Part shown: positions 216 to 10,418 of the stretch, piece after piece
Numbering within the stretch: position 1 is the stretch's first letter
How the letters are laid out: the number at the start of each line of letters is the position of its first letter
Origin: an uncultured Christensenellaceae bacterium
GTDB lineage: Bacteria; Bacillota; Clostridia; Christensenellales; UBA3700
Length of the DNA stretch: 10,558 nucleotides
Direction: 5' to 3'
Assembly (NCBI GenBank): GCA_902373595.1
Contig: CABKMX010000016.1
Location: 1-10,558 of the forward strand
Program-made: the position numbers and the translations under genes
Notes under the pieces: generated by a model
What the model was told of the DNA's origin: nothing
The model's database searches: none
What the model saw: the letters and a program-made list of their open reading frames with translations, nothing else

Positions 216-2297
216 TCAGACTCCGAACAGCAACTCGCCGTATGTGGGATACGGCCACATCTCTTTCGGGGTCTTCATCTCCGCGCAGTCGACGATCACG
301 CGCATCTCGTGCATCAGGGGCAGGACCTTATGCGCATAGAACGCCGACTGCTCCGCCGCGCCTTGGACGTTTTTCGCCTCGGCGAGCGCCTGCGAAAGCT
401 CCTCCGCCTTTGCGCACATGCCGTCAGTCAGCTCGGACAGCTCTGTCGCGAGCGCCTCTTCCGTCGCACAGTTTGCGCCGGGCAATATCTTTTTGGCGGC
501 GACGGCGTCGCACAGCGTGCGCACATAGTTCAACACCGCCGGATAGATGTCGCGCCTGACCATCTCGACGGCGGTCAAGCCCTCGATCGCGACGCTCTTG
601 CAATAGTTGTCCAGCATGATCTCGGTGCGGGTGACTACCTCGCGCTTTGACATAACGCCCATGCGCTCAAACAGATCCACGCTCTTTTCGCCCGCGAACA
701 GCGGCAGCGCCTCGGACGTGTCGGCAAGGTCGGACAGACCTCTTCTCTTCGCCTCCCTCTTCCACTCGTCCGAGTAGCTGTTGCCGTTGAAGATGATGCG
801 CTTGTGCTCTCTGACCGTCTTGACGACGAGGTCGTGCACCGCGGAGTTGAAGTCGTCCGCCTTTTCGAGCACGTCGGCAAAGCGTTTGAGCACGTCCGCA
901 ACGATGGTGTTGATGACGATGTTGGGACCGGCGAGCGAGAAGGACGAGCCGACCATGCGGAACTCGAACTTGTTGCCGGTGAACGCGAACGGCGACGTGC
1001 GGTTGCGGTCGGTGGTGTCCTTGGGCAGGTCGGGCAGAGTGTCCACGCCGAGCTTCATCACTCCGCGCTTTTTGCCCGCATATTTTTCGTCGCGCTCGAG
1101 CGCGTCGAGCACTTCGCCGAGCTCTTCGCCGACATACACGGACACGATCGCCGGCGGAGCTTCGTTCGCGCCGAGCCTGTGGTCGTTGCCGGCGCCGGCG
1201 ACGGACAGCCTGAGCAAGTCCTGATACTCGTCGACCGCGGCGATGACCGCCGAGAAGAAGAGCAAAAAGCGGCTGTTTTCGGCGGGCGTGCTGCCCGGGT
1301 CGAGCAGATTCACTCCCCTGTCGGTGCTCATCGACCAATTGTTGTGTTTGCCGCTGCCGTTGATGCCGGCGAACGGCTTTTCGTGCAGCAGGCAAGCAAG
1401 CCCCCTCTTGTCGGCGATCCTCTTCATCATCTCCATGATCAATTGATTTTGGTCGTTGGCGAGGTTTGACGACGCGAACAGCGGCGCCAACTCGTGCTGC
1501 GCGGGCGCGACCTCGTTGTGTTCGGTCTTGGCGAAGATGCCCAGCTTCCACAACTCCTCGTCCAGCTCTTTCATGAAGTCGAAGACGCGCGACTTGATCG
1601 CGCCGAAGTAGTGATCCTCCATCTCCTGCCCCTTGGGCGGACGCGCGCCGAACAGCGTGCGCCCGGTATAGACGAGGTCCTTGCGGCGGAGATAGTCCTT
1701 TTTGTCGATGAGGAAGTACTCCTGCTCCGCGCCGACGGTGGAAAAGACCTGCTTTGCCTCGGTGCCGAACAGTTTGAGTATGCGCAGCGCCTCACGGCTC
1801 AGCGCCTTCATGCTTTTGAGCAGAGGCGTCTTTTTGTCGAGCACCTCTCCGCTGTACGAAAAGAACGCGCTGGGCACATACAGCGTGCCGTCCTTGACGA
1901 ACGCAAACGAGGTGGGATCCCACGCGGTGTAGCCCCTCGCCTCGAACGTCGCCCTGACTCCGCCCGAGGGGAAGCTGGACGCGTCCGGTTCGCCCATCAC
2001 CAATTCCTTGCCCGAAAACTCCATGATCGCCTTGCCGTCCCTGCCGGGCGAGACAAAGGAATCGTGTTTTTCGGCGGTGATGCCCGTCATCGGCTGGAAC
2101 CAGTGGGTGAAGTGGGTCGCGCCCTTTTCGACCGCCCAATCCTTCATCGCGTTGGCGACGACGCTCGCGACGCCGGGGTCGAGCGGCGTGCCGTCCTCGA
2201 TCGTGCTCACCAGCGACTTGTAGACGTCTTTGGGCAGTTTGTCGCGCATCACGGCAATGCCGAACACGTTTTCGCCGAAGATCTCGTTTGCTTTCAT
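216..2297 (-). CDS. glnN: Glutamine synthetase type III
   Basis: The 693-residue protein catalyses ATP-dependent formation of glutamine from glutamate and ammonia in the cytoplasm. Its length is that of GSIII (about 700 residues), not GSI (about 450). Family hallmarks are the N-terminal ENVFGIAVM stretch, [12 protein letters not shown] followed by TAEKHDSF at about residues 61-81, the [11 protein letters not shown] metal and substrate segment, and [11 protein letters not shown] around residues 313-323, where glutamate binds. The C terminus [14 protein letters not shown] is also typical. The ATG is preceded by GGAGGTG at a normal distance and no in-frame alternative fits better. The gene is first in its transcription unit, behind a consensus promoter and a leader with terminator-like and antiterminator-like hairpins. 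It is followed after 9 bases by an amidotransferase gene. No truncation or missing motif is seen. Confidence 0.97.
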
Positions 2298-2311
2298 AAA
2301 ACACCTCCAAA

Positions 2312-2356
2312 TGAAAAAGGCGCCGCGACCGTCTTATGACGATTCGCAACGCCTTT
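2312..2356 (-). terminator. Attenuator-type terminator hairpin in the glnN leader
   Basis: In the leader RNA a 12-bp stem forms between AAAGGCGTTGCG (plus positions 2356-2345) and CGCGGCGCCTTT (2327-2316), counting two G-U pairs. A second stem, TCGTC with GACGG around an ATAA loop, closes the interior. The 3' arm runs into a short U tract (UUUUU, then C and AUUU). The hairpin starts about 23 nt after the predicted transcription start and ends only 8 nt before the ribosome binding site, so it can only act as an attenuator or as a barrier to initiation. The U tract is short, so termination would be partial. Confidence 0.65.
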
Positions 2357-2361
2357 GTTGC
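2346..2361 (-). promoter_or_regulatory. Candidate antiterminator hairpin, ANTAR-like hexaloop
   Basis: The leader RNA contains GCAAC-AAAGGC-GUUGC, a 5-bp perfect stem with a six-base loop. Its loop and 3' arm are the same bases as the 5' arm of the terminator hairpin, so the two structures exclude each other. The loop has A at position 1 and G at position 4, the two bases that ANTAR-domain antiterminators recognise in hexaloops. ANTAR regulators are known to control nitrogen genes in Bacillota. The usual first hairpin of the two-hairpin ANTAR motif is not visible in the roughly 20 nt upstream, which weakens the assignment. Confidence 0.4.
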
Positions 2362-2385
2362 CTTTGTTATTTATTTTATGTGGAT

Positions 2386-2454: not shown

Positions 2455-3789
2455 TCAATCCTCTATTCGCGCCGTCTTGCCCCAAGGCGGATTGACGCCT
2501 TCGTTGTTGATCAGCCACAGCACCGGGACTCCGTTTGCCGCGCTCTCCGGAGGGAAGGGTGCATATCCGTCCGTCAACATTATTATGCACGCAGGCGGCT
2601 TGTCCGCCATGCGTCTTTTCACATACTCAAAGACGACGCCGAAGTCCGTACCGCCTCCGCCGACGGGCTTTATCCCCTTCAATTCGCCGACGTCGGAGAA
2701 GGGCTGCGGCTCGGAGACAGCGGCGTCGAAGAAGCCGAGCCACCCCTTGAGTTTGCCGTCAAAGCAATCGATTGCGCCCTTGACCTCGGAGTAGGCGGTG
2801 GTGACCATATCGTCCGACATGGAGCCGGACGTATCGATCATGAACAAAATATCTTCCGCATACTCGTCTCTGTCGTTGAACGCCGGCAAAAAGAAGGGGC
2901 TTTCGGCGAATCTCGCGTCGGGCGGCGCAAACGAATAGTCGTTGATCTCCTCTTGAACGAAGTCGCTGAGCACGCTTCGCCAATCCGTCTTGGGCGACTT
3001 CAGCTCTTTGAGAAGCCTTCGCGCGAACAGCGGCAACATACCGTTTCGGTTGGACGGGTCGCGCACCGAGATTGCCTCGCAGGCGTCGCGGAACCGCTTT
3101 ACCCACACGTCTTCGAGCGCGGCGTCGTCGACCGTTCCCCAGCGCGTATGGTCGTCCCATTGTCTGTCCGAACCGCCTCTGCCGTTTCCGACGCGCCTGC
3201 CGATCTTGCCGCCGTTTGTGCTGCCGTTTTTGTCGTTTTTGGCATTGTCTCTGCCGCCGCTCGCCTCGTCGCCCTCGCCGACGCTCTCCGCGCCCGAGCC
3301 GGATGCAACTCGCCGCCCCCTGCCCCCGTCGCCTCTCTTTATGAGCATGTCATAGACCTGCTCGGCGGTGAATTTGTATCCCTCCTCACCGTTCGGAGCG
3401 ACGTGCATTGACGGGCCGTATTTCTTCAACGTGATTGACTTGATGTCCATGCCGTGCTCGAGCATGATGTTGGAGTTGACGACGATATCGCACGCGACGT
3501 TGAAGACGTCGTGATCTCTGTCCTCTTTTCGCAGGCAGTGTCTGAGCACGCAGTGCATCACCTCGTGCGTCATCACAAAGTCGAGCTCGCAATCGTCCAG
3601 CTCGTCGAGAAACTCGGGGCAAAAGTACATTCTCACTCCGTCCGTCGCGGCGGTGCCGCAATTCTCGTCGAGCGCGAATTTCATATGCATCATCAGCACG
3701 CCGAAAAAGCCCTGCTTTGTCAGCAACCGCATGCGCGCCAACAGCAGTCTCTTGACGTACCCTCTCTTTTTCTCTTCAGACACTTCCAT
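2455..3789 (-). CDS. HExxH metallopeptidase with C-terminal VWA-like domain (DUF2201/COG3864 type)
   Basis: The 444-residue protein has two domains. The N-terminal part (about 1-150) carries H75-EVMH-79 followed by CVLRH, a zinc-metallopeptidase motif, with ACDIVVN at 99-105 as the likely region of the third ligand. A low-complexity Gly/Ser/charged linker spans about 150-215. The C-terminal part (about 310-440) is VWA-like: DTSGSMS at 319-325, GGGGTDF with Thr381, and TDG with Asp407 form a complete MIDAS metal site. No signal peptide or membrane segment is seen, so it is probably cytoplasmic. Its ATG lies inside the end of the MoxR gene (14-nt overlap, different frame), so translation is likely coupled. 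Proteins of this family commonly pair with MoxR ATPases. Whether it cleaves peptides here, and which, is unknown. No clear terminator follows the stop codon, so some read-through into glnN is possible. Confidence 0.88.
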   Translation of the reverse strand: MEVSEEKKRGYVKRLLLARMRLLTKQGFFGVLMMHMKFALDENCGTAATDGVRMYFCPEFLDELDDCELDFVMTHEVMHCVLRHCLRKEDRDHDVFNVACDIVVNSNIMLEHGMDIKSITLKKYGPSMHVAPNGEEGYKFTAEQVYDMLIKRGDGGRGRRVASGSGAESVGEGDEASGGRDNAKNDKNGSTNGGKIGRRVGNGRGGSDRQWDDHTRWGTVDDAALEDVWVKRFRDACEAISVRDPSNRNGMLPLFARRLLKELKSPKTDWRSVLSDFVQEEINDYSFAPPDARFAESPFFLPAFNDRDEYAEDILFMIDTSGSMSDDMVTTAYSEVKGAIDCFDGKLKGWLGFFDAAVSEPQPFSDVGELKGIKPVGGGGTDFGVVFEYVKRRMADKPPACIIMLTDGYAPFPPESAANGVPVLWLINNEGVNPPWGKTARIED

Positions 3790-4891
3790 TGAGCAAGCTT
3801 CCCGTGGTGCGCATCCACCTGACGAACTCGTCGATTTTCATCAATTTGTCGCGATAGCCCGGCTCGAGGTACATATAGTCCTTCATCAAGACGGCGGAAA
3901 AGTCGGGCGGCAGCATGGAGGCATAGCGTATCGAATTGGCGATGCGCGTCAATTCGTTTTTGTGTTCGCGCGCATAGGCGGTCATCGACGAAATCAGCGC
4001 ATAGAGCGCGTCCGACGTCTTGGGCGGAGCGGGTTTTTTGCCGTCAAAGATATCCTCGATGTCGGGAAGGTCGGCGAACACTCTCGACCACGAGCGAAAC
4101 TCGACCGCGGTGCCCGAGCCCACCAAACCGGCAATCAGCGGATACATCTCGTCGATGCCGGAATTTACCGTTTTCATGAGGTCGCTGACCATCTCCCATG
4201 TACGCGGAGTGGGGAACGCAAGCTCTTCGCTCGCCGGGTCGAACTTCATCAAATAGTCGACGTGGAAGGACAAAAATCCCAGCACTTTCGCGTCGACGCC
4301 CTTTCCAATCGCCCACTTTTTCCACTCCGAGAAGCTGCCGTCGACCTCGATATGCATGAGACGGTTGGCGAGCGCCTTGGGCATCTTGAACGCAACCGCT
4401 CTGTCCGTCGTCCTGTTTCCGGCGGCGATGACGATGCAATTGTCGGGCAGGCGGTGCTCGCCTATGACCCTGTCCAGCGTGATTTGATATGCGGCTGCTT
4501 GGACGGATTGCGGCGCGGACGACAGCTCGTCCAAGAACAATATGTTGACGACGTCGTCCGACTCGTCCATCGCGAAGATTTTCGGTTTGAGCCAGACGGC
4601 AAGCGTCTTGTCCGCGTTGGCTGTCGGGATGCCGCGAAGGTCGATGGGATTGAACAGCAAAAGCCTGACGTCGGTGACGTCGACGCGCTTTCCTGTGCGG
4701 CGGCGTATGACGTCGGCAATCTGCCTCACCGCCTGCGACTTGCCTATGCCGGGCGGTCCCCAAAGCATCACGGACGGCATTGTCTTGACGGGCGCGTTCG
4801 CCGCAATCAGCGCGCAATACGCATCGCTCAACTGTTTTACGAGGGCGTTGACCGTCATTGACGGCACGCCGGCAAGTTTGATGTCATTCAT
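3776..4891 (-). CDS. MoxR-family AAA+ ATPase
   Basis: A 371-residue AAA+ protein. Walker A is GPPGIGKS (45-52). Walker B is NILFLDEL (116-123) with D121-E122. Sensor 1 is Asn159 in AAGNR, ANRL with Arg177 is the probable arginine finger region, and FPTPR with Arg230 is the sensor-2 site. MoxR ATPases form rings that remodel target complexes together with VWA-domain partners (RavA-ViaA, CbbQ-CbbO and NorQ-NorD are studied examples). The next gene encodes such a partner. The start ATG overlaps the helicase stop by 8 nt (ATGAATGA). The short GGGAG upstream is a weak ribosome binding site, which suits translational coupling. All nucleotide-binding motifs look intact. The substrate is unknown; the operon suggests the helicase or what it is bound to. 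Confidence 0.93.
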   Translation of the reverse strand: MNDIKLAGVPSMTVNALVKQLSDAYCALIAANAPVKTMPSVMLWGPPGIGKSQAVRQIADVIRRRTGKRVDVTDVRLLLFNPIDLRGIPTANADKTLAVWLKPKIFAMDESDDVVNILFLDELSSAPQSVQAAAYQITLDRVIGEHRLPDNCIVIAAGNRTTDRAVAFKMPKALANRLMHIEVDGSFSEWKKWAIGKGVDAKVLGFLSFHVDYLMKFDPASEELAFPTPRTWEMVSDLMKTVNSGIDEMYPLIAGLVGSGTAVEFRSWSRVFADLPDIEDIFDGKKPAPPKTSDALYALISSMTAYAREHKNELTRIANSIRYASMLPPDFSAVLMKDYMYLEPGYRDKLMKIDEFVRWMRTTGSLLNGSV

Positions 4892-7800
4892 CTTGATTCA
4901 CTCCCAATTTTTCGTCTATTTTCGCGAGCTGTTTTTTCAGCTCTTCGATCTGTTCGGCATAGCTGTCGAACTTGGCGAGCTCATAGCGGATATCCCTCTC
5001 TCGCTCCTCCAATTCGCGCAATACTTTTTGGTGTCTTTTCAGCTCGTCCCCGATGCCGTCCAACGCGTTGTCGAGGCGCTTCAAGATGCCTATGTCCGCG
5101 TCGCCGAGCTCGACGTAATGCCTGTCCATGCGCTTGAGCCACACGTACGGTTTTTCGGGAATCATGTTGGCAGGCAGAATCAACTCGAATCCGCAATAGT
5201 CGCACAGCGTCGTCTCCTCCGTCGCCCACGCGTACGCTCTGACCGCATTGCCGATGCTTTCACGCAGCGCGCGCCTCTTCTCCGTCTCCTCCTTTTTGTC
5301 GGCTCCGGCGGCGAACACGCTTTCCCTCAATCGCATATCGCGCACATATTCGAGGTCTTGAGCGCACGCCTCCGTCTTTATCCTTTGGGCGCCGATTTTC
5401 TCCGGCAGGTCCGCCAATTCCTGCTCCATATTCAGCCTTGCCTCGACCGAATTGCGCCGGAGCATCAAACATCTCGACAGCTCGTTTGCGGTCTCGACCC
5501 TCTTTTTGACCAGCGGATTGCCGACGGCAATCGCCTTGACTTCGGCGTAATTGAGCACGATGCTGTCAATGTCCGAACTGCTTCGCGCGTCGAGCGAGCC
5601 GGACAGCAGCGCGGCGATGAATCGCTGTTTGGTCTCGAGCAATTGCCACGAATAGGCGTCGAAGCTGCCCTCGGTGATATAGCGATGTATAAACACCTTG
5701 GCGTTGGTGTTGCCCTGCCGCAAAATTCTGCCCTCGCGCTGGGTCATGTCCGCCGGTCTCCACGGCACGTCGAGGTGATGGAGGGCGATCAGCTTGTCCT
5801 GAATGTTGACCCCAAGCCCCAATTTGAACGTCGAGCCGATCAATATGCGTATGTCTCCGCTCCTGACCCGTTCGAACAATTCTTCGCGCTTTTTCTCCGT
5901 GTTCGCGGTATGGATGTAGGCGATGTCTCGCCTGTCCACGCCGTAATCGACAAGCAGTCTCGCGAGCTCGTCGTAGATGTTGAATTCGTCCTTCGGCGTC
6001 GAGATGTCGCAAAAGACGAGCTGCGTGCTCTTGGCGGCGGCGGTCCTGCGATAGATGACGGCGACGTTCTCGGCGCATCTGGCGACCTTTGACTGATACG
6101 AAAAGGACGCCTTGGGATTGACCAATCTGATGTCGAGCGCCGCTTTTCTTCCGTCCGTCGTAATCTTGAGCATGTTGTCCTCGGTACGTTCGACGTTGCG
6201 CGAACGGACAGCGTCGGCGCGTTCGGACAGCTCTTCGAGATACGCCTTGAACTCGTCCGTCCTTGCGACATTTGCGTCCGTATAGCCGTCGAACGAGGGG
6301 ATATGCGCGCTCGAGTCGACCGCATGGAAGTCGGCAATCGACGACAGCAGCGTCGTCAGCTCGGGCAGGTTGTGGAACTTGGCGAACCTCGTCGCAAGTC
6401 TGTACGAGCTGGTGTCCACGTCGATTTCGAACTCCGTCGTCTTTTCGGCGAACATGCCCACCCAGCTGTCGAAGTTTTGCAGGTCGAGCATCGCCAGCTC
6501 GCCGCTCTGCAGATAGTTTTGCATGACATATACGTCGGTGACGGAGTTGGTGATGGGCGTGCCCGTAGCCATGACGACGCCCTTGCCGTCGTGCCTCCTC
6601 TGCACCGCGCGCACCTTGTCCAGCATATCGGCGCACCTCTTCGACCCGGCGGAGCTTATGCCCAGCACCGATTCGATCTTCGTCTCGATGGGGACGTTTT
6701 TGAAGTTGTGCGCCTCGTCGACAAAGAGCCTGTCTATCCCGAGGTCGTCGAAGCAGATTGACTTGTCCTCCTCGACTTTCGCCGCCTCTTCGGACAGCTT
6801 TTTCTTGACCGTCTCCAGTTTGCGCCTGAGCGCGGACGTCGCTTCTCCTTGGTCGATCTCTTCTTGAATCTCGTCTCTTTGCGCCCTGAGCTCGTCCAAT
6901 CGGAAATCCTTTGACACGGGTATCTGCTCAAAACAGCTGTAGGCCATCACGATTCCGTCATAATCGTTGTCGCGTATGTTTTGCAAGACCTGTTCTCGCT
7001 TTTGCGGCGTAAACGTCTTGGGCTCCACGCACAATATCTTCGCCGAGGGGTACATCTGCCGGAAGATGTCCTGCCATTGTCCCACGATGTTGTTTGGGAC
7101 GACATACAAGTTCTTTTTGGACAATCCCATTCGCCTGAGTTCCTGCCCCGCGGCGATCATGACGAACGTCTTGCCGGCTCCGACGTCATGTGCGAGCAGC
7201 ACGTTCGGCGTAAAGATTATCCTTGCGACCGCGTCCTTTTGGTAGGGATAGAGCCTGATCGACGGATCCATTCCCGGGAAGTTCAAAAAGGCCCCGTCAA
7301 ACTTTCTGCGCCTCACACATCCGTACTTGTTCTCAAAGATCTCGACGAGCCTCTCCCTTCGCCCCGGCTCCGCCCATATCCACTTTTCAAACGCTTGCGC
7401 AATCTCCCCCTGCTTTTCGAGCGCGGCAATCGTCTCCTTTTTGTTGAGTATCCTCTTCGTACCCGTCGGGCTCGTCGGACACGAGATCTCGTCGGTGACG
7501 ACGATGTTTTTCATGTTGAGCGTCTTTTCGAGGATATACATTCCCTCCATTCTCGCCGTGCCGTACGTATGGGTCACGGCGACGCTTCCGTGATAGCGGC
7601 TCTTTTGGGGGATCTCCCACGTGCCGATCATCTCGTCGTGTTTTGTCTGCCACATCCGCCGCATTTGTTCTTTCTCTGCCTCGTTCGCCTCCTTGTACCC
7701 CGACGGCTCGCCGAAGAGGAAAAAGATGAAGTCGTCGACGATGTCGGTCGGCAGCCACGGCGACCCGAGCGCGGCATGGATGTCTTTCGCCGTCGCCGCG

Positions 7801-8420
7801 GCAGGCAGCACCTCTTCGATTGCGGCGACGTTGTCGGCAAAATAGCCGCAATATTGCTCGTTCGCCTCTCTCGCGATTCTCAACTTGCGCATCAAGTTGC
7901 CCGACAAGTACTCTTCCGTCGTCTCCCAGCCCTTGTAGAAAGTCTCCTGCCACGTCTCGGGATTTTGCAGAATTGCGCCCTTGAGCTCGCCTATGACCGC
8001 CTTGTAATCCCTGCCCGTGACCGACGCGATATACTCGATGTCCACCCTGCCCAAGTTGCTCAAACTCGCAATCAAACCGTCCGCGCAGCTGTCGAAATGC
8101 ACGCCGAAAGTCCTGTCGTCCGTGTCGAACACGTTGACCCAATCGACGGGCAAATCCGTGCAAGTGACCTCTTTTGCATGAGCCTCTCTCCGTTCTCTCT
8201 CCTCTTGCTCCTCCCTCTCTCTTTCGAGCCGTTCGCGCTCCTCTTTCTCCTTTTGAGCGCGAGCGCGCTCGGCGTCCTCCGCGAACTTGAGACCGTCCAC
8301 CTCCCGTCTCAGCTCCGCCAGCAATTCCGCCTTTTCGTCGGGAAAAAGATCGGGATCCCCGAGCCTCGAAATCAGCGCGTCAATCCTCTCTTTTGCTTGA
8401 GCTATGAATTCTTTATCCAT
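4884..8420 (-). CDS. SNF2-like superfamily 2 helicase, methylase-less relative of N12-class methylase-helicases
   Basis: A 1178-residue cytoplasmic protein. Residues about 10-90 are Glu/Arg-rich and look like a coiled coil. Residues about 90-390 contain SPWLPTDIVDDFIFFLFG near Trp222 and THTYGTARMEG near Tyr286, which match the pre-helicase region I recall from large mobile-element and phage methylase-helicase proteins (COG4646). The helicase core has VGAGKT (413-418), VVPNNIVGQW, DEAH (568-571), ATGTPITNS, STFKLGLGVNIQ and QREGRILRQG (894-903), the full SF2 set. Residues 1073-1076 form a single CxxC (CDYC). The last 100 residues look like a second coiled coil. No methylase motif such as NPPY is visible. 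The ATG follows AGGAGG by 5 nt. It is the first gene of a three-gene overlapping operon with the MoxR and metallopeptidase-VWA genes. DNA translocation or remodelling is inferred from family; true strand separation may not occur. Confidence 0.87.
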   Translation of the reverse strand: MDKEFIAQAKERIDALISRLGDPDLFPDEKAELLAELRREVDGLKFAEDAERARAQKEKEERERLEREREEQEERERREAHAKEVTCTDLPVDWVNVFDTDDRTFGVHFDSCADGLIASLSNLGRVDIEYIASVTGRDYKAVIGELKGAILQNPETWQETFYKGWETTEEYLSGNLMRKLRIAREANEQYCGYFADNVAAIEEVLPAAATAKDIHAALGSPWLPTDIVDDFIFFLFGEPSGYKEANEAEKEQMRRMWQTKHDEMIGTWEIPQKSRYHGSVAVTHTYGTARMEGMYILEKTLNMKNIVVTDEISCPTSPTGTKRILNKKETIAALEKQGEIAQAFEKWIWAEPGRRERLVEIFENKYGCVRRRKFDGAFLNFPGMDPSIRLYPYQKDAVARIIFTPNVLLAHDVGAGKTFVMIAAGQELRRMGLSKKNLYVVPNNIVGQWQDIFRQMYPSAKILCVEPKTFTPQKREQVLQNIRDNDYDGIVMAYSCFEQIPVSKDFRLDELRAQRDEIQEEIDQGEATSALRRKLETVKKKLSEEAAKVEEDKSICFDDLGIDRLFVDEAHNFKNVPIETKIESVLGISSAGSKRCADMLDKVRAVQRRHDGKGVVMATGTPITNSVTDVYVMQNYLQSGELAMLDLQNFDSWVGMFAEKTTEFEIDVDTSSYRLATRFAKFHNLPELTTLLSSIADFHAVDSSAHIPSFDGYTDANVARTDEFKAYLEELSERADAVRSRNVERTEDNMLKITTDGRKAALDIRLVNPKASFSYQSKVARCAENVAVIYRRTAAAKSTQLVFCDISTPKDEFNIYDELARLLVDYGVDRRDIAYIHTANTEKKREELFERVRSGDIRILIGSTFKLGLGVNIQDKLIALHHLDVPWRPADMTQREGRILRQGNTNAKVFIHRYITEGSFDAYSWQLLETKQRFIAALLSGSLDARSSSDIDSIVLNYAEVKAIAVGNPLVKKRVETANELSRCLMLRRNSVEARLNMEQELADLPEKIGAQRIKTEACAQDLEYVRDMRLRESVFAAGADKKEETEKRRALRESIGNAVRAYAWATEETTLCDYCGFELILPANMIPEKPYVWLKRMDRHYVELGDADIGILKRLDNALDGIGDELKRHQKVLRELEERERDIRYELAKFDSYAEQIEELKKQLAKIDEKLGVNQDE

Positions 8421-8508
8421 GCGTTCCTCCTGTTTCGCCTCCCCATAATTGTATCAAAACGATGGTACCGTTCTCGTCGCATGAATCTCAATATCACTTC
8501 CGCCGAAT

Positions 8509-8537
8509 ATGATATGATAACCCAACATTATTGTCAA
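8509..8537 (-). promoter_or_regulatory. Promoter of the helicase-MoxR-VWA operon
   Basis: TTGACA (8537-8532), a 17-bp spacer, then TATCAT (8514-8509), one mismatch from consensus. Transcription would start near 8502, giving a leader of about 80 nt ending in the AGGAGG of the helicase gene. No strong operator palindrome is seen in the leader. Confidence 0.75.
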
Positions 8538-8539
8538 GC

Positions 8540-8561
8540 AAAAATCGAGGGCTTTGCCCCG
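8540..8561 (-). terminator. Weak intrinsic terminator before the helicase promoter
   Basis: On the minus strand CGGGG pairs with CCTCG (one G-U) around a six-base loop CAAAGC, or alternatively GGGC pairs with GCCC around AAA. One A then UUUUU follow. The stem is only about 5 bp, so efficiency is uncertain. It sits directly before the -35 box of the helicase promoter, where it could insulate the operon. Confidence 0.4.
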
Positions 8562-8680
8562 CCGCGCGGCTTGACGACGAGTTTGCGGCGCGCAAAGAAT
8601 CCGTGCGATATTGCGCGTCGAGTCAAAACATTGTTGTTGTTTTGGGGAGTTGAAAAGACTACGATAGCTTCCTATCGCCT
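8540..8680 (-). ncRNA. Candidate structured small RNA upstream of the helicase operon
   Basis: This segment lies between the promoter at 8712-8685 and a hairpin with a U5 tract at 8561-8540. The predicted RNA, about 140 nt, begins with a CGATAG/CTATCG stem closed by GAAG. It then has CAAAAC/GTTTTG around a 9-nt loop, CGCGCAA/TTGCGCG around about 16 nt, a GCCGCGCGGC palindrome, and the terminal hairpin. No start codon opens more than two codons behind a plausible ribosome binding site. I recognise no known RNA family (not SRP RNA, 6S, T-box or RNase P by eye). It could instead be an untranslated leader that reads into the helicase gene. Confidence 0.35.
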
Positions 8681-8684
8681 ACGA

Positions 8685-8712
8685 TGATAACACATTTCCC
8701 CGCTTCTGTCAA
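8685..8712 (-). promoter_or_regulatory. Extended -10 promoter within the intergenic region
   Basis: TTGACA (8712-8707), a 16-bp spacer, and TATCAT (8690-8685) preceded by TGT, which makes an extended -10 element. The predicted start, near 8679, falls at the 5' edge of the first hairpin of the candidate small RNA. No protein-coding gene begins close behind it. Confidence 0.65.
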
Positions 8713-8752
8713 GACCGCATTTCAAAAAATTTCCGTCGTCTTTGAAAGCTTG

Positions 8753-8790
8753 GGCGCAGCGCACGGGTCCGCCATCCCCTGCGCTGCGCC
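8753..8790 (-). repeat. Perfect 11-bp inverted repeat
   Basis: GGCGCAGCGCA (8753-8763) and TGCGCTGCGCC (8780-8790) are exact complements around a 16-nt loop. In the minus-strand transcript this follows the ten-codon ORF by about 40 nt. A second inverted repeat, TTTCAAA/TTTGAAA (8720-8747), follows and holds a U6 run, but that run is too far from the GC-rich stem for a classic terminator. The hairpin may be a 3' end, a processing signal or part of a leader RNA. Confidence 0.6.
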
Positions 8791-8829
8791 GCAATCGCTT
8801 TGTCTTTGGTCAAGCCGTACGCTTTGCGC

Positions 8830-8862
8830 CTATTTGACGCCGCGCCGTCGTATCGTCTTCAT
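8830..8862 (-). CDS. Ten-codon ORF with strong promoter and ribosome binding site, possible leader peptide
   Basis: The reading frame encodes MKTIRRRGVK and stops at TAG. It starts 5 nt after GGAGGAGGG, one of the strongest ribosome binding sites in the window, and about 27 nt after the start predicted from a TTGACA/TATACT promoter. It contains three arginine codons in a row (CGA, CGG, CGC). An 11-bp hairpin follows about 40 nt downstream. The layout resembles a regulatory leader peptide, but no amino-acid biosynthesis gene follows; the next gene is the helicase 410 bp away. It may alternatively be the remnant 5' end of a gene destroyed by a frameshift, since an adjacent frame stays open for about 39 codons after it. 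Confidence 0.35.
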   Translation of the reverse strand: MKTIRRRGVK

Positions 8863-8895
8863 ACTCGCCCTCCTCCGATCTTTGTCCGCACTTCA

Positions 8896-8924
8896 AGTAT
8901 ACAACGGGTTTTGCCGCATGTCAA
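8896..8924 (-). promoter_or_regulatory. Near-consensus promoter ahead of the ten-codon ORF
   Basis: TTGACA (8924-8919), a 17-bp spacer and TATACT (8901-8896), one mismatch. The predicted start is near 8889. It is the first of three TTGACA promoters, all on the minus strand, spaced through the 584 bp before the helicase gene. Confidence 0.8.
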
Positions 8925-9004
8925 GACGGAGTGTTCATATTTCTTCTTTTGAGCGTTCGATGTCCCGTGATTGTCCCATTGGCAAAAAAGTCTCTTTACC
9001 GCGC

Positions 9005-9694
9005 TCAATTCATGCGCTGTCCGACATAGATTGCCCTGCACTCGTCGAGGGCGACGCACCCCAGGACGCCGCTCAAATATACGCCCGTGTCCAAATGCAC
9101 TTTGCAATAGTCGGCGATGTTCGGGCTGTCTGTCTTTGCGCCTTTGCGCGGATAGAAGACGATTTCGTCTCTGTTCGTCAAATACCTGACGGGCGTATGC
9201 CCGAACAGCACGCATTTGCTCTCTTCGGGCAGTACGTCTTTGTCTTTGAAGCGGCGGTCGTAGACGAGTTGTTCGCCCGTCGCCTTTGACGGGTGCAACG
9301 CCTTTCCGTCAATGATGGGCACGCCGGCGTGCACGCCGATGAAGTTTTGCCCTTCCGCATAAAACGGCAGCGAATCAATTGCGTCCACCGTCTCCCAATC
9401 GAGCAACCGCCCGTCCTCGAACCGATTGCGCAGCTTGTCGAGCACCGTGTCGTAATCTTGCGCCTCAGCCATCAACGCGCGATAGTGTTTTACGAAGTCG
9501 TATTCGTGATTGCCGGCGATGCAGATTGCGTTCGGCATCGAAAACAACAGTTTGGCAAGACGCACGCCGTCCGGTCCCTTGTCGAGGATGTCGCCCAGCA
9601 CAAACAACCTGTCTCCGCCGCCGAATTTGATCTTGTCCATCAGGCGGCAGAACAGCTCATAGTGTCCGTGTATGTCCGAAATGCAATACTCCAT
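9005..9694 (-). CDS. Calcineurin-like metallophosphoesterase, Ser/Thr phosphatase or ApaH/PrpE type
   Basis: A 229-residue protein with all motifs of the PPP-type metallophosphoesterases: DIHGH (7-11), GDILDKGP (34-41), GNHE (61-64), HAG (122-124), GHT (165-167), and a C-terminal LDTG (201-204). These residues bind two metal ions and the phosphate. Relatives hydrolyse phosphoserine or phosphothreonine, or bis(5'-nucleosyl) tetraphosphates; the sequence alone does not decide which. It is probably cytoplasmic, as no signal peptide is seen. The ATG chosen is the only one that keeps the first metal motif. It has no ribosome binding site and lies exactly 6 bases after a TATAAT box, so the mRNA is probably leaderless. 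The gene stands alone, and no clear terminator follows its stop. Confidence 0.92.
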   Translation of the reverse strand: MEYCISDIHGHYELFCRLMDKIKFGGGDRLFVLGDILDKGPDGVRLAKLLFSMPNAICIAGNHEYDFVKHYRALMAEAQDYDTVLDKLRNRFEDGRLLDWETVDAIDSLPFYAEGQNFIGVHAGVPIIDGKALHPSKATGEQLVYDRRFKDKDVLPEESKCVLFGHTPVRYLTNRDEIVFYPRKGAKTDSPNIADYCKVHLDTGVYLSGVLGCVALDECRAIYVGQRMN

Positions 9695-9700
9695 ACGTCG

Positions 9701-9729
9701 ATTATATCACATCTCTTCAACGGTGTCAT
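9701..9729 (-). promoter_or_regulatory. Extended -10 promoter giving a leaderless phosphoesterase mRNA
   Basis: ATGACA (9729-9724), a 17-bp spacer and a perfect TATAAT (9706-9701) preceded by TGA, an extended -10. Only the six bases CGACGT separate TATAAT from the ATG, so the A of the start codon falls at the expected +1. No Shine-Dalgarno sequence is present. Confidence 0.8.
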
Positions 9730-9737
9730 TCCCTGCC

Positions 9738-9827
9738 GCGGCTTTCGCGCTTCGCGCTCCGCTCGAGCACGAATCCCTGCACACTGCCGTGCGCGAGTGA
9801 TCCGTTACGTTTTCCTTATGGCGCGCC
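9738..9827. repeat. tRNA-tail palindromic repeat, copy 1 (left-truncated)
   Basis: This copy shares the core GCTCGAGCACGAATCCCTGC (9761-9780) and the CACTGCCGTGCGCGAG that follows it with the other two copies, apart from one base (A for G at 9781). Its right end is TTTCCTTATGGCGCGCCA. The left end lacks the GGCGCGCC terminus, and its sequence before the core has drifted (GCTTTCGCGCTTCGCGC). It almost touches the -35 box of the phosphoesterase promoter at 9724-9729. The left boundary is approximate. Confidence 0.8.
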
Positions 9828-9965
9828 ACACAAATAGGGATGCGATGTTTGGAAATGTGGATTTTCTGCCTCTTCCTTTTCAATACTTTTGTCTTTGAAA
9901 CAACTTTCGTTTTCTGTAGTGAAACAAAAGTCGCATTCTTTTTTTTTGCCTTGTCTTTTCGTTAC
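9828..9965. other. Spacer between repeat copies 1 and 2, no gene seen
   Basis: An AT-rich stretch without a supportable gene. It contains ACTTTTGT (9885-9892) and its exact complement ACAAAAGT (9924-9931), and a run of nine T at 9939-9947. Its first bases (ACACAAATAGGGAT) align with those of the next spacer (ACGCAAAAAGGGAT), so the repeat unit extends a little beyond the GGCGCGCC end. Confidence 0.6.
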
Positions 9966-10081
9966 GGCGCGCCATAGGAGGCTTGCCCCGCAAGAGGGCA
10001 AAGCTCTTCGCTTCGCTCGAGCACGAATCCCTGCGCACTGCCGTGCGCGAGGTCTTCGGCCTTGTTTCCTTATGGCGCGCC
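9966..10081. repeat. tRNA-tail palindromic repeat, copy 2 (complete)
   Basis: A 116-bp element bounded by GGCGCGCCATAGGA on the left and TCCTTATGGCGCGCC on the right, imperfect terminal inverted repeats. Inside are a GCTTGCCC...GGGCAAAGC hairpin, a CTTCGCTTCGCTCGAGC segment, the shared CGAATCCCT core, and a GCGCAC/GTGCGC hairpin with loop TGCC. The ends equal the 3' terminal 15-17 bases of the adjacent tRNA-Arg gene. It is nearly identical in its first 90 bases to copy 3. Confidence 0.9.
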
Positions 10082-10085
10082 ACGC

Positions 10086-10112
10086 AAAAAGGGATACGGT
10101 GATGCCGTATCC
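10086..10112 (-). terminator. Minus-strand terminator between repeat copies 2 and 3
   Basis: GGATACGG and CCGTATCC form a perfect 8-bp stem with a 5-nt loop, followed on the minus strand by C and UUUUU. It would stop transcripts coming from the tRNA side. The rest of the spacer (10113-10199) is T-rich on the plus strand and holds no gene. Confidence 0.65.
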
Positions 10113-10199
10113 GAACTTCGCTTTTCTGTCCTTTCGCTGTCTTTGTATTTGCCGAATTCTTTCTTTGTTTTTTCTGCCTTTCAATGTTCTGTAATATTC

Positions 10200-10312
10200 G
10201 GCGCGCCATAAGGAGGCTTGCCCCGCAAGGGGGCAAAGCTCTTCGCTTCGCTCGAGCACGAATCCCTGCGCACTGCCGTGCGCGAGGTCTTCGCGTACAT
10301 TTATGGCGCGCC
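10200..10312. repeat. tRNA-tail palindromic repeat, copy 3 (complete)
   Basis: A 113-bp element from GGCGCGCCATAAGGAGG to ATTTATGGCGCGCC, with a perfect 12-bp terminal inverted repeat (GGCGCGCCATAA). It has the same internal hairpins and core as copy 2. The G-rich arm reads GGGGGC instead of GAGGGC, which extends the stem with GCCCC. Its right end abuts the terminator of tRNA-Arg. Confidence 0.9.
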
Positions 10313-10341
10313 AAAAAGCCCCCGCTTTCGACGGGGGCTTT
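10313..10341 (-). terminator. Strong terminator of tRNA-Arg
   Basis: An 11-bp perfect stem AAAAGCCCCCG/CGGGGGCTTTT with a 7-nt loop begins at the last base of the tRNA CCA and ends in UUUUU on the minus strand. The flanking GGCGCGCC on both sides extends the palindrome to about 19 bp with one bulge. The stem is symmetric enough to work in the other direction as well. Confidence 0.9.
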
Positions 10342-10418
10342 TGGCGCGCCATAAGGAACTCGAATCCCTAACCTTTGGTTCCGTAGACCAACGCTCTATC
10401 CAATTGAGCTAATGGCGC
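10342..10418 (-). tRNA. tRNA-Arg (anticodon ACG), CCA encoded
   Basis: A 77-nt cloverleaf: acceptor GCGCCAT/ATGGCGC, D arm GCTC/GAGC, anticodon stem TTGGT/ACCAA with loop CTACGGA (anticodon ACG, read as ICG), 5-nt variable loop, T arm AGGGA/TCCTT with loop TTCGAGT, discriminator G and encoded CCA. All stems pair, with one G-U in the T stem. It reads CGU, CGC and CGA codons. Its last bases CCTTATGGCGCGCCA recur as the ends of the neighbouring repeats. Confidence 0.97.

Follow-up and report, generated by a model that had tools for sequence, protein, structure and literature searches.

The question raised by this locus is whether a predicted DNA motor, a MoxR-type ATPase and a putative zinc peptidase that are encoded by overlapping genes constitute a unit, and what such a unit might do. 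The genes lie in a 10,558-nt stretch of DNA (the window, contig CABKMX010000016.1) from an uncultured Christensenellaceae bacterium. Positions given without a locus name are those of the window, and all genes, motifs, overlaps, single promoter-like sites and the block edge located below are on its minus strand. An earlier note, made from the sequence, had described three minus-strand frames that overlap by 8 and 14 nt, and both the frames and the overlaps were confirmed. From upstream to downstream they encode an SNF2-family SF2 ATPase (4884..8420, 1178 aa), which is related to DarB and free-standing, with no methylase domain seen by Pfam; a MoxR-type AAA+ ATPase (3776..4891, 371 aa); and a protein that joins a zincin metallopeptidase domain to a VWA domain (2455..3789, 444 aa, DUF2201_N plus DUF2201), each assigned by open reading frame, Pfam and phrog match. 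Comparison of this trio across genomes suggests that it is an undescribed cassette, perhaps for genome conflict.

Recurrence and inheritance of the triad

Homologues of the VWA protein were sought in whole genomes at E ≤ 1e-30. They were found in 1 of 46 genomes of the family of G001 (metagenome-assembled genome CALWGZ01, titled Christensenellaceae, which is 98% identical to the window over 9.8 kb), in 14/396 genomes of its order and in 8/291 of its class, as well as in 2 of 198 genomes of the class of G002 (titled Erysipelotrichaceae), 5 of 392 of the phylum of G002 and 1 of 9 of the family of G480. The searched sets overlap, and they sum to 25 distinct positive genomes. SNF2, MoxR and VWA genes stand in the same order in 22 of the 25, among them G478 (locus L045), whose SNF2 gene is broken by an in-frame stop, and G985, whose VWA gene runs off the contig. 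Two genomes (G045 and G356) carry MoxR-VWA without an adjacent SNF2, and in G462 the locus breaks off at the contig end, immediately ahead of MoxR. A DNA scan yielded one more relative with a triad, G003. The triad is therefore a real unit, and the recurrence at variable loci of distant genomes that had been predicted was borne out, with the same order in most positive genomes and mostly different neighbours; neither is the helicase neighbour unique to this genome, nor is the triad a fixed core locus. A housekeeping role was rejected on the grounds of the patchy distribution, as seen in the family (1/46) and the order (14/396) of G001.

The linkage extends to the gene junctions. The SNF2 stop overlaps the MoxR start by 8 nt in the window (4884..4891) and the MoxR end overlaps the VWA start by 14 nt (3776..3789). 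With starts set, unrefined, at the longest frame, SNF2/MoxR overlaps are present in 18 of 19 tabulated triads and MoxR/VWA overlaps in 15 of 19, so that the overlaps are not due to chance; the 8-nt overlap likely reflects translational coupling. Furthermore, the pairwise distances of the three proteins correlate with one another (r 0.90-0.945, 18 genomes), and the correlation persists after the RpoB distance is removed (0.89-0.93), whereas each protein correlates with RpoB at r 0.44-0.63. The RpoB comparison was made over ~380 residues in 18 of 19 genomes (G480 gave no match), and L045 and three later-found triads stand outside the trees and correlations. One locus, L046, departs clearly from its host. 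Its RpoB is 59% identical to that of the window and groups with those of L047 and L048, whereas its VWA protein, also 59% identical to that of the window, is as close as those of the L041 and L071 genomes, whose RpoB is 73-75% identical, and its SNF2 branches beside that of L071 within the clade of the window. These comparisons identify the L046 triad as a product of transfer across classes.

The surroundings of the triad give a similar picture. Three relatives, those whose glnA is most similar (81-88% identical), share more than 8 kb of synteny with G001, glnA included. This synteny stops beyond the promoter-like site of glnA but short of the VWA stop codon, which places the approximate left edge of the foreign block at ~2431-2436; no triad was found in these three relatives, all of which are incomplete drafts. 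Runs of shared flanking genes are seen in close relatives (L047/L048, L073-L076 and L050/L051), the distant L049 and L078 share three flank genes at 38-52% identity in rearranged form, and four further locus pairs have one weak shared match each. Since its distribution is patchy, its neighbours are mostly different and three close relatives lack it next to glnA, the triad is best read as an accessory cassette that moves horizontally as a unit. The ratio of nonsynonymous to synonymous substitution rates (dN/dS) was 0.07-0.20 between the window and the 98%-identical strain and 0.03-0.20 in four close pairs; hence, the triad genes are under purifying selection.

The three proteins and their relatives

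The SNF2 protein matches SNF2-rel_dom (6e-12) and Helicase_C (1.5e-9) in Pfam and the DarB-like phrog_10089 with 811 bits over residues 111-1175. Its Walker A (~7167-7184), DEAH (~6708-6719) and motif VI, QREGR (~5727-5741), were located, and the residues of motifs I, II, III, V and VI do not vary among 14 aligned homologues, of which 10 belong to triads and 4 are solo. The MoxR protein exceeds the cut-offs of AAA, AAA_3 and AAA_5 and matches phrog_1297 (ATPase; 325 bits, 8.7e-97), with Walker A at ~4736-4759 and Walker B at ~4526-4540; its Walker and sensor residues are invariant in 15 aligned homologues. The VWA protein matches DUF2201_N (5e-36), VWA-like DUF2201 (6e-15) and phrog_1314 (260 bits, 7.5e-77). 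In its structure models a C-terminal VWA domain (residues ~307-444, 2455..2871), with the metal ion-dependent adhesion site (MIDAS) motif DxSxS at ~2821-2835, follows a zincin-like N-terminal domain (residues 1-154, 3328..3789). The latter was folded alone, since the fold search with the whole protein probed the VWA domain only, and the model is a confident one (predicted local distance difference test score, pLDDT, 93.8). The HEVMH that had been taken for an intact zinc site (residues 75-79, ~3553-3567) is real and lies in this domain, where the model places HExxH on an active-site helix within a zincin-like fold. In Foldseek the first 13 of 21 rows were zinc peptidases or zincin-like proteins, the model resembling Spartan (6mdx), Wss1 and also selecase, with a weak best E of 0.02 and scores in the range that, on the tool's own scale, is common for models without a clear match. 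Among 55 sequences H75, H79, R87 and D101 are invariant and E76 is kept in at least 90%, and HExxH is kept in 19 of 19 tabulated triads. The ATPase, MIDAS and HExxH motifs of the three proteins are intact. A link between the loss of the peptidase Glu and the absence of SNF2 was considered, as the L043 and L044 pairs, which lack an adjacent SNF2, read HQxxH; viral pairs without SNF2 retain HExxH, and therefore no general link exists.

Both parts of the triad have relatives in mobile elements. Among phage records 119 contain SNF2-like sequence, which in 27 of them spans 80% or more of the query; among plasmid records the corresponding counts are 2047 and 482. A tree of 34 SNF2 rows has a branch with 100/100 support that sets the free-standing proteins (17 from triads, 4 solo) apart from those of polyvalent, plasmid and phage type; on the free-standing side, the triads and the solo SNF2 of L057, near which a recombinase was found, make up a further 100/100 group. 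The root of this tree is not independently fixed, and six polyvalent rows (L018, L020, L021, L022, L023 and L031), L037, the near-duplicate triads L048 and L076, and further SNF2 loci stand outside it. SNF2 ATPases have been described as translocating on dsDNA, and DarB as acting in cis to protect phage DNA (PMC5512222). The triad SNF2 shares with the DarB-like polyvalent proteins a homologous ATPase from residue ~111 to near its end, but differs in being free-standing, without a methylase fusion, in its separate clade and in its MoxR and VWA partners. The earlier assignment to an SNF2 family of mobile elements is supported at the level of the broad DarB-like phage and plasmid group, with the qualification that the free-standing SNF2s make up a separate clade. 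In three loci (L052 7565-13654, L053 7301-11596 and L054 8573-12609) a PHP-domain gene is followed immediately downstream by a solo SNF2 of the sister clade, and in L052 a gyrB-type topoisomerase gene comes next, a different setting for a free-standing SNF2.

The MoxR and VWA genes are adjacent in Erwinia phage Pastis (Schitoviridae) and on Synechocystis and Thermus plasmids, and in phage G the homologues lie ~4 kb apart. A VWA relative accompanies 45 of 54 viral-contig MoxR loci by profile and 23 by tblastn. An SNF2 is present at one of the 54, L107, which shares its contig with L004; here the serine-recombinase gene of a mobile element has its end within the triad SNF2 gene, at the motif VI codons (L004 ~5216-7231 and 7066). 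Since snf2 genes of other elements are integration targets of Tn1806-like elements (PMC12942858), such genes may be a recurrent landing site. Of 50 phage, plasmid and viral-contig homologues, 49 retain HExxH, a count that includes the five from plasmids and named phages as well as near-duplicates. In jumbo phages a pair of MoxR and a metallopeptidase-vWA protein has been proposed to act in virion assembly (PMC7824862), and the core genes of N4-like phages include genes 24 and 25 of N4 (PMC4193335). These phage pairs, with phrog_1297 and phrog_1314, have the same two proteins and domain order as the triad, and nearly all that were examined keep HExxH and MIDAS; they differ in that no SNF2 adjoins them in the examined viral contigs, except for the one split triad, whereas the pair of the window sits in a cellular operon with glnA, a phosphoesterase gene and tRNA-Arg as neighbours. 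No phage structural gene was recognised in the window. Phages, too, carry the MoxR/zincin-VWA pair as a module, without SNF2. The phrog_1314 family and several phage records are labelled HNH endonuclease, yet their relatives carry HExxH and MIDAS, and the label looks wrong.

A possible role in genome conflict

The literature offers a framework for the triad. For MoxR-vWA pairs the capture and remodelling of a client have been proposed, and for ternary systems the restructuring of the complex with the third component (PMC7159879); in iSTAND types the vWA domain is fused to variable peptidases that are inactive until triggered (PMC12839542). The ternary systems (VMAP, iSTAND, FtsH and beta-propeller; PMC7159879, PMC12839542) are like the triad in having MoxR, vWA and one further conserved partner, in the predicted remodelling of a complex and in allowing for fusion of peptidases to the vWA protein. 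The triad differs from the four described classes in its third partner, since the only further operon gene is SNF2 (a bpMoxR model scored 13.9 bits, with a cut-off of 27), in its peptidase, an N-terminal zincin with a retained active site, and in its presence in Firmicutes, whereas PMC7159879 places emphasis on multicellular bacteria. The same source names an SNF2-clade helicase among the rare effectors of VMAP systems, and vWA-MoxR-VMAP genes have been observed near type III CRISPR loci (PMC10910872). No account of the triad was found in the open-licence literature, a scope that leaves out bioRxiv and most subscription papers.

The explanation that we prefer, with a probability of roughly 45%, is that the triad is a horizontally moving variant of the MoxR-vWA ternary systems with a DarB-type SNF2 as its third partner, and that engagement of DNA would lead to remodelling and then to cleavage by the zincin. 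The SNF2 would bind dsDNA, move along it and engage a DNA-bound situation, in which the DNA is most likely foreign or distressed; it would present a protein client to the vWA protein, and the proteins would form a physical complex. The MIDAS of the vWA domain would dock the MoxR ring, which would remodel the client or the complex, so that the N-terminal zincin is exposed or unlocked and might cut a DNA-associated or regulatory protein. We infer a role in genome conflict, i.e., in defence against or control of invading elements. The MoxR-vWA systems with a third partner (PMC7159879, PMC12839542) and the DarB-type SNF2 (PMC5512222) provide precedents in conflict systems that support it, and the CRISPR genes beside one triad and the restriction-type genes near another are listed in its favour.

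A PADLOC search (1e-15) of 60 neighbour proteins from 10 loci, hand-picked from a map of 202 called frames, gave, among the matches listed (25 of 35 families), Cas10, Csm6, one methylase, one mREase_II that is not assigned to a locus and two PDC-S01 candidates. The type III CRISPR genes Cas10 and Csm6 adjoin the L046 triad, and the methylase and a specificity subunit lie near the L049 triad. With 60 control proteins encoded elsewhere in genomes that bear a triad (60 of 68 frames, picked evenly within 11 of 12 regions, a selection that differs from that of the neighbours) the matches were mad3 (3), IetA (1) and mad8 (1). CRISPR and restriction genes were thus seen only on the triad side, none giving a match in the control. 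An IetA-like match in L078 was discounted, because IetA also appears in the control. Membership of a described defence system was rejected as well, as PADLOC gave only sub-family cross-matches for the SNF2 and AAA proteins and none for VWA. The triad SNF2 shares its superfamily, with weak model matches, with the SNF2 helicases of DISARM (DrmD), BREX and Zorya, but it reaches 46.6 bits against a curated NCBIfam cut-off of 610 for DrmD, and the window lacks the other components of those systems.

Several observations weigh against a role in conflict. The raw PADLOC numbers are alike for neighbours and controls, and too small to test. When 40 neighbours were scanned with Pfam, 28 matched, mostly ordinary metabolic, translation and cell-wall genes. 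No nuclease domain was seen in the SNF2, MoxR or VWA protein, and a fast-changing sensor domain was not demonstrated in any of them. In addition, the vWA domain runs to the end of the protein (residue 444), without a C-terminal effector of the VMAP type, and the peptidase-like domain is N-terminal. The inspection of neighbours for defence islands or integrative elements that had been proposed showed CRISPR and restriction genes near a few triads, with PADLOC numbers similar to those of the control, and no integrase, relaxase, transfer or capsid gene was found among 42 Pfam-scanned neighbours, which were hand-picked and include two false frames over the VWA gene (L050:6696-7139 and L050:5196-6644). 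On this basis the triad was rejected as cargo of a visible mobile element. The kinds of neighbour lean towards conflict biology, but are too thin as evidence of defence, and a defensive role is plausible but unproven.

The same observations were considered under three other explanations. SprT/Spartan and Wss1 proteases degrade proteins in crosslink repair, and the triad could likewise clear DNA of protein, with the SNF2 stripping, or stalling at, bound or crosslinked proteins, the MoxR-vWA pair unfolding them and the zincin degrading them, as an accessory rather than an immune function. The resemblance of the zincin model to Spartan and Wss1 (and to selecase), the purifying selection in the four close pairs and the mostly ordinary neighbours all fit such a function, which we nonetheless consider unlikely. 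The phage and plasmid relatives that are known both for the SNF2 and for the MoxR/zincin-VWA pair would also agree with a captured mobile-element module, a DarB- or N4-like antirestriction or transfer helper that the host has retained and that acts for the element. This is more doubtful still, as SNF2 was found at a single one of the 54 viral-contig MoxR loci, in a triad split by an inserted element, the free-standing clade is separate from the polyvalent SNF2s, and the scanned neighbours include no transfer, integrase or capsid gene. Finally, the MoxR-VWA pairs of the RavA-ViaA and NorQ-NorD sort that have been studied act as maturation chaperones (PMC13036017, PMC9976466), so that the pair might mature the SNF2 or a metal enzyme, HExxH serving for processing only; but the regular partner is a DNA motor, and no metabolic client enzyme recurs beside the triad in distant loci, and this appears the least probable of the explanations.

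A bolder form of the conflict explanation, which is put forward tentatively, is that the triad represents a fifth MoxR-vWA ternary immune class, in which the SNF2 would sense invading DNA and license the MoxR-vWA pair to fire the zinc protease, and which would have arisen from a free-standing DarB-type motor and a MoxR/protease pair shared with phages before spreading through gut Firmicutes. If true, a compact cassette of three genes would couple a dsDNA motor to a chaperone-gated protease and thereby sensing to proteolysis, a link that is not described for MoxR-vWA systems in the literature searched, and the pair of the N4 gene 24-25 type would gain a cellular cousin with a defined partner, which bears on the role of that pair. 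As the cassette is small, intact and movable, it is directly testable in laboratory hosts.

Flanking features of the window

The single shared promoter that had been assumed for the three genes is uncertain, as three promoter-like sites, each with 11/12 matches, precede SNF2: the nearest, TTGACA-17-TATCAT, at 8509..8537, and two further ones at 8684-8712 and 8896-8924. On both strands together five sites were found, with 0.6 expected. The interval 8421-9004 holds three tandem TTGACA sites with 17-nt spacers, and a terminator-like hairpin (8561-8546) precedes the last of them; the operon may thus be preceded by a small RNA or a leader. At the other end, the operon probably ends with the VWA gene, since the next gene downstream on the same strand, the type III glutamine synthetase gene glnA (2297..216), has its own promoter-like site (2414-2386, 12/12 matches). 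Between that site and the start codon, the glnA leader contains a strong hairpin and, after it, a U run (2300-2385, minus strand; fold z-score -5.0), a possible attenuator of this glutamine synthetase.

Upstream of the triad lies a calcineurin-like phosphoesterase gene (9005..9694). It was not found in the three incomplete drafts that are syntenic around glnA, G001 has a second copy elsewhere (69% identical), and a 47%-identical calcineurin-like phosphoesterase precedes the triad in the distant L049 (7254-7943); possibly it was carried in with the triad, and it may be an optional fourth gene. Three loci, L041 (2732-4837), L071 (15790-17874) and L078 (15381-16523), have an extra AAA+ ATPase gene that lies upstream of the triad and shares its strand, those of L041 and L071 being related (42% over 207 aa). 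Further upstream in the window is tRNA-Arg (10418..10342), beside which an ~83-nt repeat occurs in three copies spaced by ~240 nt (9722-10354); similar repeats are also present in the 98%-identical strain.

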